Shown one piece after another: positions 57,306 through 64,000 of a stretch of DNA of 64,000 nucleotides. The stretch is from Fibrobacter sp. (GTDB lineage Bacteria > Fibrobacterota > Fibrobacteria > Fibrobacterales > Fibrobacteraceae). The stretch is taken from the NCBI GenBank assembly GCA_024399035.1, contig JAKSID010000005.1, positions 1 to 64,000 of the forward strand. Direction: 5' to 3'. The notes beneath the pieces were generated by a model. That model searched no databases. It was not told the origin of the DNA and saw nothing but the letters and a program-made list of their open reading frames with translations. Numbering within the stretch: the stretch's first letter is position 1; each line of letters starts with the position of its first letter. Both the position numbers and the translations under genes were made by a program.

Positions 57306-58499
57306 CTATTTCTTTAGTTTTGCGGCAAAAGACAGCGCTGCAGAAACTGCAACAGCCAAGATGGTGGGGCCAATCCAATCCACGCCGATGTTCACGGCGA
57401 TTTCGTAAACGGCAAAGCCCACGGCCCAAGAAATCAAGTTCCAAATCCAGAAGCCCTTCTGGTCCAGGTGTTCCTTCACAAAGAAGTAAGAAACCAGAAG
57501 TACGGCGGCCATGGGAGCGAATACGGCGGCAATGAGGTAGAGGAAGCTGATGTAGTGATCCACAATGCCCCAGATGGCAAGAATTGTGCTCAAGACGCAA
57601 ACCACAACGCCACCCACCTTGGGATTTAATTTGTTGTAAATCGCCTTGGCAGATTCGCCCGCAGAGTTTGCAGCCAGGAAGTTGGTTGTCACCGTAGAAA
57701 GGGTCACGATAATGATTCCCGGGATACCGATGCCAGCCAGGAGAATAGACTGGGCAATACCGTTTTCCACACCCAAGCCCAAACCTGCAATCTGCAAGCC
57801 AACGAAGTACATCCAAAGGCTGGCCAAAGTGTAGGCGACAGCAGAAGCGATGGTTGCCGGAACAGGCTTTTCCACATCCTTGGTGTAGTCAGAAATCACC
57901 GGCAGCCAGGAAAGAGGCATAGCAATGGAAATTTCGAAGATAGTCCAGAAACCAAGCTGATGACTTGCGTTGTGGGTCGCGCCGGCGGTTTGTGTGGCCG
58001 CAGCAGCATCCACGCCGAAAAGCTTCGCCGTAAGCACCACCAAGAGAACCGCCAACAGGCCCATGACCACAGTAGTAATCTTCGCAGTCTTGCGCAGGCC
58101 AACAAAGACCCATGCAGCAATAAGAACAGCCAGAATCACACAAGTCACAGGGAACGAAATGGGAAGATTCAAGCCTGCCAAGGCCATGGCGCCCTGAGCA
58201 TTCAGTACGGCAATCCAGCCAATAAGTTGCGTGAGGTTCAAAATGGCAAAGAACTTGGAACCGTACTTACCGAAAGTGGAAGCAGTGGTTTCCATGGCGT
58301 TCACACGAACGCGGGCACCAATCAGGCCCACAAAGTACAGCATGATGCCGCCCAGAACGTGGCCCAGCACCAGCGGGAACCAAATATCGCTCAGCTTGGC
58401 AGCCTCACCGATTTCAATACCGCAAACGATTTCAGAGACGGAAATGGCAACGCCAAACCAGATGATAGCGTTGGAGAAAATGCTAGTACGTTTTTCCAT
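57306..58499 (-). CDS. NCS1-type permease (CytX/cytosine permease-like)
   Basis: A 397-residue carrier with about 12 helices. The start (IIWFGVAISVSEIVCGIEIG, then LGHVLGGIMLYFVGLIGARV) and LSWLPVISDYTKDVEKPV match the cytosine/purine/thiamine precursor permeases; the short length is near that of CytX, a proposed hydroxymethylpyrimidine importer. No thiamine riboswitch precedes it. It is 6 nt behind the 58506 gene, so it closes the minus-strand run. Confidence 0.8.
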   Translation of the reverse strand: MEKRTSIFSNAIIWFGVAISVSEIVCGIEIGEAAKLSDIWFPLVLGHVLGGIMLYFVGLIGARVRVNAMETTASTFGKYGSKFFAILNLTQLIGWIAVLNAQGAMALAGLNLPISFPVTCVILAVLIAAWVFVGLRKTAKITTVVMGLLAVLLVVLTAKLFGVDAAAATQTAGATHNASHQLGFWTIFEISIAMPLSWLPVISDYTKDVEKPVPATIASAVAYTLASLWMYFVGLQIAGLGLGVENGIAQSILLAGIGIPGIIIVTLSTVTTNFLAANSAGESAKAIYNKLNPKVGGVVVCVLSTILAIWGIVDHYISFLYLIAAVFAPMAAVLLVSYFFVKEHLDQKGFWIWNLISWAVGFAVYEIAVNIGVDWIGPTILAVAVSAALSFAAKLKK

Positions 58500-58505
58500 G
58501 ATGTA

Positions 58506-59162
58506 TTATTTCTTATCCTGTGGCACCAGGCGTTCCACGATGCGGAACAGGTCATTATAGATTTCAAGGAAGTCTTCGATCCAGATGGGGTCGCGTTCGC
58601 CCACCACATGGAAAGTTTCTTCCAGAGTATGGCGAGCATTGTACGGGCCCACCAAGGCGCCTTCGGGCTGAGAAACGCCCTGCTGGTATGCTGCCACAAC
58701 GGCCTGGCGAGCGCGGTAACTACGGCGGAGTCGAGCAATCAAGGCGCCACGCAAAGAAAGCAGTTCTTCGTGGGCATTAATGAACTCGCCGGCCTTGATC
58801 CAATTTTCCACAACGTTCAAGCGACGCAAAATGGTATCCCTTTCGGTATTGGGAATCAGCATGCGCTTGTCGTTCAAAGTCTTTTTAATCTGTTCAGAAA
58901 TGCCACCCAGAATCTGGTCGTTCCAGAATACCATGGGGTTTTCGGAGAAACGGCTAACGTCGTCGGCCTTGGGCTTGTGAGTGGAAACCCAACGATCAAG
59001 CTTGTCGGCTACCATTCCGGCTTCGGGGAGGCGGTCCACTGCCACATATTCACCGGCACGGTTCAGCAGGTTATCTGCATAGACCATACGCCAATGCGGG
59101 AGCTTTCCGCTCTTGCGGATAGCATCGATTTCCTGGCGAAGTGTTTCTAAACGTTCCTGCAT
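58506..59162 (-). CDS. Conserved hypothetical helical protein
   Basis: Not recognised. 218 residues, no signal peptide or membrane segment. Mostly helical with a coiled-coil-like start (RLETLRQEIDAIRKSGKL) and conserved-looking parts such as LPHWRMVYADNLLNRAGEYV, IPNTERDTILRRLNVVENWI and LRGALIARLRRSYRARQAVV. It lies between the MotB-like gene and the permease, separated from the former by a palindromic repeat. Confidence 0.72.
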   Translation of the reverse strand: MQERLETLRQEIDAIRKSGKLPHWRMVYADNLLNRAGEYVAVDRLPEAGMVADKLDRWVSTHKPKADDVSRFSENPMVFWNDQILGGISEQIKKTLNDKRMLIPNTERDTILRRLNVVENWIKAGEFINAHEELLSLRGALIARLRRSYRARQAVVAAYQQGVSQPEGALVGPYNARHTLEETFHVVGERDPIWIEDFLEIYNDLFRIVERLVPQDKK

Positions 59163-59187
59163 TTTTTAGACCTTCAATTTAACACTG

Positions 59188-59219
59188 CTTCGATTGCTTC
59201 GCTTCGCTCGCAATGACTG
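59188..59219 (+). repeat. Dispersed GATTGCTTCG..GCAATGAC element
   Basis: GCTTCGATTGCTTCGCTTCG followed by CTCGCAATGAC, in the spacer before the MotB-like stop. Confidence 0.8.
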
Positions 59220-59221
59220 CG

Positions 59222-59857
59222 TCACTTCTTATCCATCATCTGGAGCGGGGTTACACCGATTTCCACGCGACGGTTCAAACGACGATGTTCTTCGCTGTCG
59301 TTAGGATACTTGGGCTGGTGTTCACCGAAGCCTGCGGCAAACAAGCGTTCCGGCGGAAAGCCTTCCTTAATCAAGGTCTTCACCACGTTCACAGCACGTT
59401 CCGTAGAAAGATTCCAGTTGGTGTAAGTCTTGGACTTCACCGGAGTATCGTCAGTAAAACCGCTGACCATGATTACGTCGGTAGAATCCAGAGCTTCCAA
59501 AAGGCCCTTGCTAATGCCACGGATAACGCCCACGCCTTCCTGAGTCAAGTCTGCACCGTTAATAGGGAAAAGGAAACTTGCCTGAATCTGAATCTTGCCA
59601 TCTTCAAGAGCGATAAGGCCGGCCTCGATAGAGGTCTGCAGGCTCTTGGATAGGAGCGCATTACGTTCGGCAGCAATCTTGCGCATTTCTTCCTGGCAGC
59701 TAAGCACTTCTTCTTCGGTACGGGTAAGGTCTTCGGCTTTCTGTTCCTTCAAAGTCGCCATCGCTACGAAAGCCAAGATGAACAATGACACCAGCGCGAT
59801 GCCAAGGTCCGTATAGGCCATCCAGGGATTGCTGTTTTCGTCCTTGCGGAAACGCAT
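59222..59857 (-). CDS. MotB/ZorB-like protein with OmpA domain
   Basis: 211 residues. One N-terminal membrane helix carries an acidic residue (MAYTDLGIALVSLFILAFVA, Asp 17), as needed for ion flow in MotB, ExbD and ZorB. A short coiled coil (about 38-75) leads to an OmpA-like peptidoglycan-binding domain (VIMVSGFTDDTPV, NWNLSTERAVNVVKTLI, RLNRRVEIGVTP). It starts 3 nt after the MotA-like gene, so the two surely form one complex. Confidence 0.85.
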   Translation of the reverse strand: MRFRKDENSNPWMAYTDLGIALVSLFILAFVAMATLKEQKAEDLTRTEEEVLSCQEEMRKIAAERNALLSKSLQTSIEAGLIALEDGKIQIQASFLFPINGADLTQEGVGVIRGISKGLLEALDSTDVIMVSGFTDDTPVKSKTYTNWNLSTERAVNVVKTLIKEGFPPERLFAAGFGEHQPKYPNDSEEHRRLNRRVEIGVTPLQMMDKK

Positions 59858-59860
59858 GGA

Positions 59861-61648
59861 TTATTCCTCCACCTTGGTTTCTGCGGAAGCGGCGGGAGCC
59901 ATGGTGGCTGCGGAGCGCTGAGTCTGTTCCAAGACTTCCAGGAGGATTTCCTGAGTCTTGACGGCGTTTTCCATAAGGACTTCGCTGGCGCGTTCGTGGA
60001 AGGCTTCCAGAGACTGGTTGAGGTGTTCCACAAAGTTTTCTTCTTCTTCGTGCTCTGCGGTATCGCCGCTGAGTTTTTCCAGAATAGTTTCCAGACCGGC
60101 GCGGAGCATTTCCAAGTTTGCGCTGAGTTCGGACTGGTTCACACGCATCAGTTCTGCGGTCTGTACAATGTTTCCGCCCAGGGCATCGGTTGCTTCCTTT
60201 TCCTTCACAACGCGGTTGTCAATGCTTTCAGTGAGAGCCTTCTGGGCTTCAAGCAGCACGGCAGAAGTTTCGGAAAGTTTCTGGAAGGCAGCCAGAATAT
60301 CGTTGGAGAGGGTACCAAGCTTTTCGGAAACAGAAGCAGAAAGTTCTGCGGAACCGGCCTGGGCCTTTTCTGCCACCTGGAGGGCAACGTTCTTGAGAGT
60401 TTCCAGACCGTCGCGCTGTGCATCCACGTTGGCGTTGGTGCGGTCTTCCAGGCGCTGCATAAATTCATTCCACTGGGCGTTGGACTGCTTGACCTGTTCT
60501 GCAACAGAAGCGCCGATAGATTCGGTAGAACCAGACATTGCAGCAGCAGAAGCTGTAGCCACGCCATCCAGGGCGGTCTTCACATCAGTTGCGACCTTGG
60601 CCAGAGCGTTTTCAACGTTACCGGAAACGCCTTCAAGGCCAGCCTTCACGCCGCCTGCGATATTGCCGAGGCCTGCATCCAAGGCGCCGGAAAGGCCATT
60701 CAGTTTGTCGTCCAACTTAGCCGGGATAGATTCCACAGAAAGAGACAAAGCCTTTACGCTGGATTCCATGGGTGCAAATGCAGAAGAAACAGAAGTGCTA
60801 ACAGAACTGCCAAGATCCTTCACTGCAGCGTTCACGCCGTTCATAGCAGAGCTGAAGGATTCATTCATGGACTTCACAGAAGCAGCCATGTCCTCGCCCA
60901 CCTGAGCCACAACACCGCTAAGGCCCTGCTGAACAGCAGTGGTAATTTCCTTAAGGTTAGCTTCCACAGCATCGAACAAGCGTTCAAGTTCATCCTTGCT
61001 CTGTTCCACTTCAGAAGAAGCACCCTGCATATTCAAGGTCACTGCATCCAGGCGAGCCATAAAGCCTTCGTGAGCAGAGCTCAGCATGGTGCGGGAAGCA
61101 TTCAAAATCAAGGCTGCAAACAAACCGCAAAGAGAAGTTCCGAAGATGCCTTTCATGCCCTGGAACAAGAGCTGGATGGTATCCAGAGTTCCCTGGGTAG
61201 TAGAGTTATCAATAGCGCCACCGGCTGTTGCAACGGAGTACATCAAGCCGAAGAAGGTACCCATAAGGCCCAGCAGGATCACAGAACCGCCAGCGCTTCG
61301 GGGAACAGAGATTCCCGTATTGCTATTCAGAACTTCGTAGGCAATGGGAGAATCCAAGCGAATCTTCTTGGAAAGCAGCTGACGAGCAAGTTCAATTCGC
61401 TTCGCCACAATGCCATCGCCAGACACGCTATAAGAACCGCGGCTTTCGCAGGTTTCCAGGATTGCTGTTTCTGCAGAGATCTGCTTCAACTTCTTGAGTG
61501 CCACAGCCTGTTCGAAAAGGAACACCGCAAAGATGGCGCACAGAATCACCCAGCCGAAAAGCGGAGCACCAAAGTAAACGGCGCCGGCCACAAGGACCAG
61601 GAAACCTACGATGGTGAGCAACAAAGTGGTCGTGAAAGCATTTTTCAT
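59861..61648 (-). CDS. MotA/ZorA-like stator with long cytoplasmic tail
   Basis: 595 residues. Two N-terminal helices (FTTTLLLTIVGFLVLVAGAV, GWVILCAIFAVFLFEQAVAL), then the proton-channel pair typical of MotA/TolQ/ExbB/ZorA: SVILLGLMGTFFGLMYSVAT and GIFGTSLCGLFAALILNASR. From about residue 200 on is a very long, Ala/Ser-rich helical tail (about 390 residues) with repeating patterns such as SVKSMNESFSSAMNGVNAAV. MotA and ExbB lack such a tail; ZorA of the Zorya defence system has one. No ZorC or ZorD partner is present here, so a defence role is not supported. Confidence 0.85.
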   Translation of the reverse strand: MKNAFTTTLLLTIVGFLVLVAGAVYFGAPLFGWVILCAIFAVFLFEQAVALKKLKQISAETAILETCESRGSYSVSGDGIVAKRIELARQLLSKKIRLDSPIAYEVLNSNTGISVPRSAGGSVILLGLMGTFFGLMYSVATAGGAIDNSTTQGTLDTIQLLFQGMKGIFGTSLCGLFAALILNASRTMLSSAHEGFMARLDAVTLNMQGASSEVEQSKDELERLFDAVEANLKEITTAVQQGLSGVVAQVGEDMAASVKSMNESFSSAMNGVNAAVKDLGSSVSTSVSSAFAPMESSVKALSLSVESIPAKLDDKLNGLSGALDAGLGNIAGGVKAGLEGVSGNVENALAKVATDVKTALDGVATASAAAMSGSTESIGASVAEQVKQSNAQWNEFMQRLEDRTNANVDAQRDGLETLKNVALQVAEKAQAGSAELSASVSEKLGTLSNDILAAFQKLSETSAVLLEAQKALTESIDNRVVKEKEATDALGGNIVQTAELMRVNQSELSANLEMLRAGLETILEKLSGDTAEHEEEENFVEHLNQSLEAFHERASEVLMENAVKTQEILLEVLEQTQRSAATMAPAASAETKVEE

Positions 61649-61665
61649 TTTATACCTGTTTTATT

Positions 61666-62577
61666 TTAAGCCTTATAGGAGGCCGTGGTTTCAAACAAAT
61701 TCAACTGACCGCGAGAGAACCCGCGAAGGAACAAAGCCCACTTGCTCTGGTACCATTCAATAATCTGAATAGTTAAGCCGCGGGCGTAATCACAAAAATC
61801 ATCGGTAAAGGCCAAAAAGCCGTTTTCGTATGCGTAGTGCGGATTCCAGTAACGGCCTACATTGCGGGCACAACTGCTAGCAGTAGTGTAGTAACGGGCC
61901 GGAGCCTTGGTTGCGAACGCAGCGGCAAAACGTTTTTTTGCAAGAGCATTCAAGGAGCTGCGGAGCGAAACGACCATTGCGTTCTCCTTGTCGCGGAGAG
62001 AGGCTTCCAGACTAGGGAGCAACTTGGACACGGCGTCCACCGCACTCTCGGAGTGCCAGTACTTGCACAACTTTTCCTGCAGTTGCATCACGCGGCCATT
62101 CATACGAACGAACAAAGGTTCTGCATCGCTAACAAGCAAATGGATGGTTGCAGAATAGAACGCATTGATATCCTGCTTGTTGTTCTTCACATTCAGGACC
62201 CATCCCTTTTCTTCGTCGTGCTGCATAAACTCGCCGCTTTCCAACAGCAGGCGCATCACTTCGTCGGTAGAAAAACGCTGCATCCACTTGGCGCGGAACT
62301 CGTCGTACAGCTTGTTGGCGTCGGCGATAATCTGGGGGAAACTTACATCGGCAAGTTTCCAGGCTGTCTCGCTATAGGAAATCAATTCCGAGGAGCCCAC
62401 GTTCACAGAAGGGTCGTTCAGCATAGCGTCCAAATGTTCGTAAAGAACAATGGACCAGGTGACCATCATGGACTGGGACAAATTCGCCACCATGGACGAC
62501 CTGTTGGGTCGCACCGAGAGACGGACACTGTTGCCCGTCATCTTACGAATGGATCTGCGAAAATTCTCTTGCACCAA
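61666..62577 (-). CDS. Conserved hypothetical protein upstream of stator pair
   Basis: Not recognised. 303 residues, no signal peptide, no clear membrane helix. Mostly helical, with blocks SVRLSVRPNRSSMVANLSQS, AWKLADVSFPQIIADANKLY and RYWNPHYAYENGFLAFTDDF. It is 17 nt before the MotA-like gene and probably a cytoplasmic partner of the stator. Confidence 0.72.
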   Translation of the reverse strand: MVQENFRRSIRKMTGNSVRLSVRPNRSSMVANLSQSMMVTWSIVLYEHLDAMLNDPSVNVGSSELISYSETAWKLADVSFPQIIADANKLYDEFRAKWMQRFSTDEVMRLLLESGEFMQHDEEKGWVLNVKNNKQDINAFYSATIHLLVSDAEPLFVRMNGRVMQLQEKLCKYWHSESAVDAVSKLLPSLEASLRDKENAMVVSLRSSLNALAKKRFAAAFATKAPARYYTTASSCARNVGRYWNPHYAYENGFLAFTDDFCDYARGLTIQIIEWYQSKWALFLRGFSRGQLNLFETTASYKA

Positions 62578-62592
62578 AACCTCTAGATGTTC

Positions 62593-63312
62593 TTAGAAAC
62601 CTGTTTCAATACGCTGCCAAATGCTTCGGGACACGCGCTTGCCGCTCTTGGACAAGTCGTCGGATTCCTTGCGGACATCGGCTTCAAGATTGTTGTTGAT
62701 CAAGCTCTGGTCGCCTTCGTAATTGCCACCAGCTTCCAGATACAAGCCGTAGACGTTGTTGGAAATCTTGGTGTCGGCAGAAAGGACGCGGCCAGCACGT
62801 ACAGACAGGGCAAAGCGGTTACGGACGAATTCGCAACGAGAAAGGAAAATCTCGGGGACGTCGTCCACCCAAAGTCCGTAGTAGTTGTTGATGAACTTTA
62901 CGTTTTCGAAGATACCCTTGGAACGGAAAACCGTATTGCGGAAAGCGTTCTCCACCACCAGGTTCTTGATTTCAAAGGGGCGGTTGGAGGACACGAAATG
63001 CAAGCCGTTCCAGCTACCGGTGGAATCAGCACTGCGGAAAACCACAGGCTTTGCCTCAGAACCAACGATCTTTACAGAGCCGCGGAACATCAACTTGGCG
63101 TGTTCACCCATAAGCACCGTAACGCCCGGTTCAACCACCAAGGTATCCGTAGCAGAAAAGACCATACCCTGTTCCAGGATATAGGGGCTTTCTGCTTCAA
63201 CAAGCATGGCCTTGCCGTTCTCAATTGCCGGGAAAGGCATTTCGGCAGCCACCGCAGAACCTGCCAGCGCCGCAACAGCCAAGGCAACAATGTTACGAAC
63301 TTTCACCAACAT
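62593..63312 (-). CDS. Secreted beta-helix-like protein
   Basis: 239 residues. Signal peptide (VALAVAALAGSAVAAEM), then repeated rungs of a right-handed parallel beta-helix (TLVVEPGVTVLMGEHAKLMF, FEIKNLVVENAFRNTVFRSK, FENVKFINNYYGLWV, LSADTKISNNVYGLYLE). It is similar in layout to surface or periplasmic right-handed helix proteins. Enzyme activity is not evident. Its start overlaps the stop of the upstream gene by one base. Confidence 0.8.
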   Translation of the reverse strand: MLVKVRNIVALAVAALAGSAVAAEMPFPAIENGKAMLVEAESPYILEQGMVFSATDTLVVEPGVTVLMGEHAKLMFRGSVKIVGSEAKPVVFRSADSTGSWNGLHFVSSNRPFEIKNLVVENAFRNTVFRSKGIFENVKFINNYYGLWVDDVPEIFLSRCEFVRNRFALSVRAGRVLSADTKISNNVYGLYLEAGGNYEGDQSLINNNLEADVRKESDDLSKSGKRVSRSIWQRIETGF

Positions 63313-64000
63313 TAAATTTCACCTTTCAACTTGATCTTCTGGATAACGTGCATATCCGGAACGACCGTATTGGCAACAACATCATTAACCTTAAGGTCGC
63401 CAGTGATTTCCATGTTTGCGCTAGAGATAACGCCATGGGTCATATCGAACAGGATAACGCCGGAACCTACGATAAAGCCATTGCTTTCCATGCGCAGGTC
63501 AGAAGATTCGTCGCCGGCTTCCTTGTACTTGATGTTCATGCCGATCTTTGCCATCTGGGCGCCATCGTGAACGTACTGGTCCTGCAGGGTAAAGGACTTG
63601 TAGACAACCGTGTTACCGCTAGTGCCAGGAATTTCCACGGAGCGTTCCCAGGTTTCACCCAGGGAGACTGCCTTACCCGGCAACATGGGCTGAATCTTCA
63701 AGAAAAGGCGAACCAAGTCCAGGGCCTCGGTACCCAGCATCACGGAATCTTCCATAACGGGGTCGCTAACCACGCCGTCCTTGGCCATCTTGAACTGGAA
63801 ATGTTCAGTAGCCATATAGCGTTCCATACTGCGGAATTCTTCCACGGAGCGTTTGTCGGACTTGTAGTCCACAGAGTCAATCTTCATTTCGAACTTAGCC
63901 GTACCATTGTCATAGGCGGTCAACAGGGAGTTGGTGGCACGAACAAAAAGGCGGGTGTTCATTGCCTCGGGGGTTCCGTTAACAGAATCCATAGGCAAAA
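63312..64000 (-). CDS. Hypothetical protein, 5' end outside window
   Basis: At least 229 residues, continuing past the right edge. A beta-rich protein (YDNGTAKFEMKIDSVDYKSD, LGETWERSVEIPGTSGNTVV, SNGFIVGSGVILFDMTHGVI), reminiscent of DUF6263-like lipoproteins that measure as repeated antiparallel strands. The only in-frame start within the window is a TTG at 63998, so the true start is probably further right. Confidence 0.7.
   Translation of the reverse strand, partial: LPMDSVNGTPEAMNTRLFVRATNSLLTAYDNGTAKFEMKIDSVDYKSDKRSVEEFRSMERYMATEHFQFKMAKDGVVSDPVMEDSVMLGTEALDLVRLFLKIQPMLPGKAVSLGETWERSVEIPGTSGNTVVYKSFTLQDQYVHDGAQMAKIGMNIKYKEAGDESSDLRMESNGFIVGSGVILFDMTHGVISSANMEITGDLKVNDVVANTVVPDMHVIQKIKLKGEI

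Follow-up and report, generated by a model that had tools for sequence, protein, structure and literature searches.

A 64,000-nucleotide stretch of Fibrobacter sp. DNA (contig JAKSID010000005.1, positions 1 to 64,000; hereafter the window) encodes an operon in which a ZorA/ZorB-like stator pair is flanked by two helical cytoplasmic proteins of 303 and 218 amino acids (aa). Two things are new here, both read from sequence: the operon belongs to a core, class-wide locus that also exists in channel-less forms, and the 303-aa protein carries a sliding-clamp-type motif near its C terminus. We tentatively propose that the encoded proteins form a docking complex for the sliding clamp that is tethered to the membrane, is driven by protons in Fibrobacter and provides a housekeeping link from envelope or growth to replication or repair. 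We give this proposal somewhat less than an even chance but consider it likelier than dedicated phage defence. The homology, gene order, conservation, stator-less forms and motif variants on which it draws were established by sequence comparison. The features of the operon are listed below in order of transcription.

63312..64000, minus strand: DUF6263-like lipoprotein, C-terminal part (Pfam DUF6263, E = 1.5e-5; lipobox LLCAC in the full open reading frame)
62593..63312, minus strand: 239-aa right-handed beta-helix protein, secreted (start resembling a signal peptide; Pfam Beta_helix, E = 2e-5)
61666..62577, minus strand: helical 303-aa cytoplasmic protein at the ZorF position (likely start GTG at 62574)
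61693..61707, minus strand: QLNLF, candidate sliding-clamp-binding motif at the C terminus of the 303-aa protein (from homologue tails, base rate and an AlphaFold2 (AF2) model)
61049..61648, minus strand: ZorA/MotA-like channel region, residues 1-200 (hhalign to DUF802 N termini; motifs)
60164..61048, minus strand: variable coiled-coil tail of the ZorA-like protein (total length of orthologues 522-644 aa)
59930..60163, minus strand: conserved ZorA tail tip, residues 496-573 (retained in stator-less relatives)
59222..59857, minus strand: ZorB/MotB-like protein, transmembrane (TM) helix and OmpA peptidoglycan-binding domain (PADLOC, Pfam, alignment)
58506..59162, minus strand: helical 218-aa protein at the ZorG/DUF2894 position (C-terminal GPYNx...DPIWxEDFLExY module)

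In the 595-aa ZorA-like protein, residues 1-200 form a MotA/ZorA-like channel region, and a coiled-coil tail of ∼390 residues follows. Its top PADLOC match was ZorA3 (E = 1.8e-14), in part via the coiled coil. Residues 1-200 alone aligned by hhalign with the channel region of DUF802, the type III ZorA, at E = 4e-9, and they carry the invariant GTFxGLM and IFGxS motifs (FGTS here). A search with PF01618 gave no match to this protein. The 211-aa ZorB-like protein has a single TM helix, in which alignment revealed an invariant aspartate (Asp17), and an OmpA domain (Pfam E = 9e-16); its PADLOC match to ZorB3 (E = 1.2e-43) was well above those to ZorB1 and ZorB2. On these sequence grounds the stator pair with its long tail, as proposed in an initial annotation of the window, is genuine, and the gene positions, common strand and spacings given there agree with the open reading frames. 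The gaps are 59 nt between the 218-aa and ZorB genes, 3 nt between ZorB and ZorA, 17 nt between ZorA and the 303-aa gene and 15 nt between the latter and the beta-helix gene, which overlaps the lipoprotein gene by 1 nt.

In type III Zorya, ZorA and ZorB are flanked by DUF3348 (ZorF) and DUF2894 (ZorG) proteins (Payne et al., PMC8565338). Annotated loci of Burkholderiales and Azoarcus are ordered DUF3348 – DUF802 – OmpA – DUF2894, and comparison with them revealed the same F-A-B-G order in the Fibrobacter operon. The 218-aa family aligned with DUF2894 at E = 1.6e-4 (hhalign score 34.5), whereas unrelated and reversed controls gave E values of 0.05 or more and scores of ∼19 or less. A GPxN...DP/SP...FL motif common to the C termini of the two families is visible by eye, and the 218-aa protein is a probable remote DUF2894 homologue. 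The N terminus of the 303-aa family gave E = 0.0056 against DUF3348 (score 27, versus ∼19 or less for controls), which is not proof of homology and would make the 303-aa protein at best a very remote DUF3348 relative; we therefore term the operon type-III-like rather than a proven member of type III Zorya. No PF11828 (DUF3348) match was found anywhere in the genome, and neither helical protein gave usable matches in Pfam, NCBIfam or PADLOC. The tip of the ZorA tail matched DUF802 C termini weakly (hhalign E = 0.0096), and we do not claim homology for it.

Beyond the 303-aa protein, the operon departs from type III Zorya in its additional lipoprotein and beta-helix genes, in being core rather than patchy and in having stator-less relatives, while sharing the gene order, the ZorA channel region, ZorB, the DUF2894-like downstream protein and the lack of ZorC, ZorD and ZorE. 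With Zorya types I and II it has in common the ZorAB stator, the long cytoplasmic tail and the peptidoglycan-binding ZorB; however, PADLOC detected none of the ZorC, ZorD and ZorE proteins of those types in the operon or among its neighbours on both sides, including past the window edge, where ZorC or ZorD would, according to the initial annotation, have marked a defence locus. That annotation had remarked on the missing nuclease and helicase partners. None were found, but such partners belong to types I and II, and the helical flankers occupy the DUF3348 and DUF2894 positions of type III. Its description of a new ion-driven envelope machine accordingly holds for the ion-driven, ZorAB-like stator but not for the novelty of its kind, given the type III-like matches and order. 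The MotAB, TolQR, ExbBD and GldLM stators share the MotA/MotB-type proton-channel architecture, whereas the Fibrobacter operon has a long tail with a conserved tip and cytoplasmic partners, and lacks flagellar, TonB or Tol partners.

A single copy of the 303-aa gene is present in 60 of the 61 family genomes. The order (tadA) – lipoprotein – beta-helix – 303-aa – ZorA – ZorB – 218-aa was kept with few exceptions in 16 stator-bearing family loci. Among 79 named GTDB loci (rumen and horse Fibrobacter, F. intestinalis and others), 51 showed the full order from tadA to the 218-aa gene, and most of the remainder were ended by contig edges or were stator-less. The gene order, which the initial annotation had wished to see compared across relatives, is thus conserved, as is the proposed multi-gene unit with periplasmic and lipoprotein genes upstream. 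Pairwise distances of the components followed the distances of the neighbouring tadA (Mantel r 0.61-0.79), a sign of vertical descent. A profile of the 303-aa protein found it in the class families f1 to f5 and gave no match in the searched genomes from other classes of the phylum (f1-f5 and g2, g5, g8, g14 and g15 are anonymous handles for families and genera, g5 being the termite genus Fibrimonas). The 218-aa protein is likewise conserved across the class. These sequence comparisons indicate a core locus that has been passed on vertically across the whole class Fibrobacteria. The beta-helix gene occurs in the stator-bearing genera with the exception of g2. Genomes of the family keep the lipoprotein gene upstream of the unit, and stator-less f4 genomes have it too; both the beta-helix and the lipoprotein gene are missing in several lineages that retain the cytoplasmic set. 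The sister family f2 has a response-regulator gene (L085:2492-2926) upstream of the 303-aa gene, replacing the lipoprotein and beta-helix genes.

In Fibrimonas, g8, f3, f4 and f5, the locus encodes the 303-aa protein, a short membrane-anchored coiled coil and the 218-aa protein but neither a channel nor ZorB. Inspection of the middle protein showed one or two TM helices at the N terminus, then a coiled-coil or PKIE-repeat spacer and the conserved tip. The tip of the main family aligned with the f4 and f3 tips at E = 4.8e-24 (hhalign); the match to the f5 tip was weaker. The N-terminal TM hairpin of f4 gave E = 0.006 against ZorA TM helices 1-2, for which homology is not claimed. A stator domain was sought elsewhere in the stator-less genomes and none was found; an apparent ZorB in four stator-less or neighbouring genomes examined proved to be flagellar MotB beside MotA. 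As judged from these alignments, the most widely kept unit is the cytoplasmic half of the system, comprising the 303-aa protein, the tail tip and the 218-aa protein. These three persist together without channel or ZorB, and the tip would be the natural docking site of the two helical proteins. The presence of the stator in type III loci of Pseudomonadota favours stator loss, rather than gain, in the stator-less lineages. In the short anchors of Fibrimonas and g8 (L054, L055, L056 and L057), long (PKIE)n-type repeats replace the coiled-coil tail, and the gene preceding the unit in these loci encodes a secreted thioredoxin/TlpA-like protein.

Clamp-binding peptides conform to the consensus QL[S/D]LF or QxxLF, or to a hexapeptide form such as QLSLPL in Hda and QFKLPL in Caulobacter HdaA (PMC12309361, PMC3836487). 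All aligned main-family 303-aa proteins end in RG(F/Y)S(R/A)GQL(N/D/E)LF (one with N in place of S) plus a short variable tail. Variants at the same position were QIDLF in f2; QLSLF, QLSIF, QQSMF, QQTLVL and QQSLAL in g14; and QNLLPL, QNILPL, QNQIPL, QNNLPL and QHSLPL in g5 and g8. QxxLF or QxxLxL forms were matched by 105 of 112 homologue tails. In a comparison set of 914 C-terminal tails of other proteins encoded in these loci, the pentapeptide occurred in 4 (0.4%), a looser hexapeptide in 16 and the strict form in none, and shuffled single tails matched at 2-9%. Sequences inside one clade are not independent, and the evidential weight therefore lies in the repeated switching between forms at one position. 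In the AF2 model of the 303-aa protein (predicted local distance difference test (pLDDT) 81.8, predicted template modelling score (pTM) 0.77), the fold is confident, the motif lies at residues 291-295 and residues 293-303 are of low confidence. The protein thus offers a peptide of the Q-x-x-L/M-F or QLSLPL type at an accessible site, as do sliding-clamp clients such as DnaE, Hda, Pol IV and MutL, which carry theirs at a flexible end; unlike them, it has no recognised catalytic domain. We know of no sliding-clamp client that is anchored to a membrane stator, and none of the papers searched names both Zorya and the sliding clamp.

Genomes of g15 (L205, L206, L207 and L208) keep the three-gene unit, and their 303-aa protein ends at or just after RG(F/L), so that the clamp motif is lost there. 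In the genome of the window itself, DnaE has QISLF at its usual site, and no more than two other genuine genes end in the strict QL(S/D)LF form. One encodes a DNA-repair radical SAM protein (TIGR03916; L106:1114-1128) ending in QLDLF plus 10 residues, and the other a small helix-turn-helix-like protein (L100:1501-1515) ending exactly in QLSLF. Judging by these termini, both are likely to be further clamp clients.

In the mechanism that we propose, ZorA, presumably as a pentamer, and two ZorB subunits would form a proton-driven rotary stator in the inner membrane, anchored to peptidoglycan by the OmpA domain of ZorB. In the cytoplasm, the ZorA tails would come together as a long rod whose conserved tip would hold the 303-aa and 218-aa proteins. 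The flexible C-terminal peptide of the 303-aa protein would bind the sliding clamp (DnaN) and so dock clamp-loaded, replicating DNA, or repair proteins bound to the clamp, at the envelope. The flow of protons would turn this tether or place it under strain. In the stator-less relatives the same module would be a passive, static membrane anchor. The lipoprotein and the beta-helix protein may report the state of the envelope. The 5:2 assembly, tip binding, clamp binding, direction of force and physiological role are what we infer, with motor and tail modelled by analogy on Zorya I and II, in which neither ion flow nor peptidoglycan binding nor the ZorA tail is dispensable (PMC11890865).

The relationship to type III Zorya favours defence, and a type III-like anti-phage system fixed in the class is possible, although we hold it less probable than the docking complex. 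ZorAB would then sense a phage disturbance of the envelope, the tip would activate the 303-aa and 218-aa proteins, and the clamp motif would aim them at replicating phage DNA. The top matches to ZorA3 and ZorB3, the identical four-gene order and the DUF2894 similarity all fit, as do the dependence of types I and II on ion flow, peptidoglycan binding and the tail (PMC11890865) and the reduced phage plating conferred by one type III system expressed in E. coli (PMC8565338). However, a usual defence island is patchy, whereas this locus is core, present in single copy in nearly all genomes and syntenic with tadA, a housekeeping gene whose distances its own follow. No defence gene was detected by PADLOC among the flanking proteins scanned (short shared enzyme stretches matched in tadA and a gltD-like neighbour were discounted), the operon proteins have no recognisable nuclease or helicase domain, and several lineages without a stator still keep the cytoplasmic proteins. 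Queries of phage records with the 303-aa protein, and of viral contigs with ZorB, found no relatives. Universality, synteny and vertical descent lead us to favour a housekeeping role.

Several observations weigh against the docking complex. The motif is short, and it is missing from g15, f3, f5 and a single g14 genome although these retain the operon; clamp binding therefore cannot be the sole function. The Burkholderiales DUF3348 proteins examined lack the motif, Foldseek searches of the PDB with AF2 models of both helical proteins returned nothing significant, and the E. coli phage effect (PMC8565338) also counts against it if type III homology is accepted. The motif might be coincidental or serve another partner, with the unit acting as an envelope-maintenance motor of the Tol/Gld kind and the cytoplasmic proteins as structural caps or tail regulators. 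The lipoprotein, the secreted beta-helix protein and the OmpA domain of ZorB agree with such a motor, as do the clades without the motif. We nevertheless judge it improbable in view of the low base rate of the motif, the alternation of both known clamp forms at one position and the lineages that have the cytoplasmic set without the lipoprotein and beta-helix genes. The initial annotation's own suggestion, an ion-driven machine by which cells would attach to surfaces or move on cellulose, found no support and seems to us very improbable. The family is cellulolytic and surface-attached, and envelope proteins are encoded in the operon; but nothing ties the helical partners to the outer surface, the furthest-conserved part is cytoplasmic, is kept without the channel and includes a partner with a clamp-type motif, and termite-gut relatives, among others, have stator-less forms.

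The lipoprotein gene extends beyond the window to about C45:64139, and the contig itself runs to 93 kb. Upstream of the lipoprotein gene lie tadA, a gene for a glutamate-synthase-like small subunit, and then metabolic and housekeeping-type genes. At the other end, a CytX/NCS1-type permease gene (window 57306-58499) starts 6 nt downstream of the 218-aa gene. The initial annotation had included it in the operon; we rejected this, since cytX is downstream in only 1 of the 79 related loci, and the permease is probably a chance, recent neighbour. The 59-nt gap between the 218-aa and ZorB genes (59163-59221) contains a palindrome-rich sequence, GCGAGCGAAGCGAAGCAATC, which we take to resemble an interspersed repeat. 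The 'repeat' of the initial annotation occurs only once in the window, and no exact copy was found in the 79 related loci. An Rfam scan of 52-64 kb detected no RNA.

A broader and more doubtful extension of the docking-complex proposal is that the complex joins envelope and replication in a housekeeping role, powered by the stator in Fibrobacterales and unpowered in sister lineages, and that type III 'Zorya' descended from it or shares its ancestry and is not primarily a defence system. If the docking complex exists as proposed, an ion-driven motor family known from phage defence would have a core role in a whole bacterial class, and a defined peptide would connect it with the replication clamp. 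Motor and effector function could be told apart in the stator-less relatives, which would constitute a natural experiment, and the proposal offers a testable hypothesis for the role of the poorly understood partner proteins of type III Zorya.

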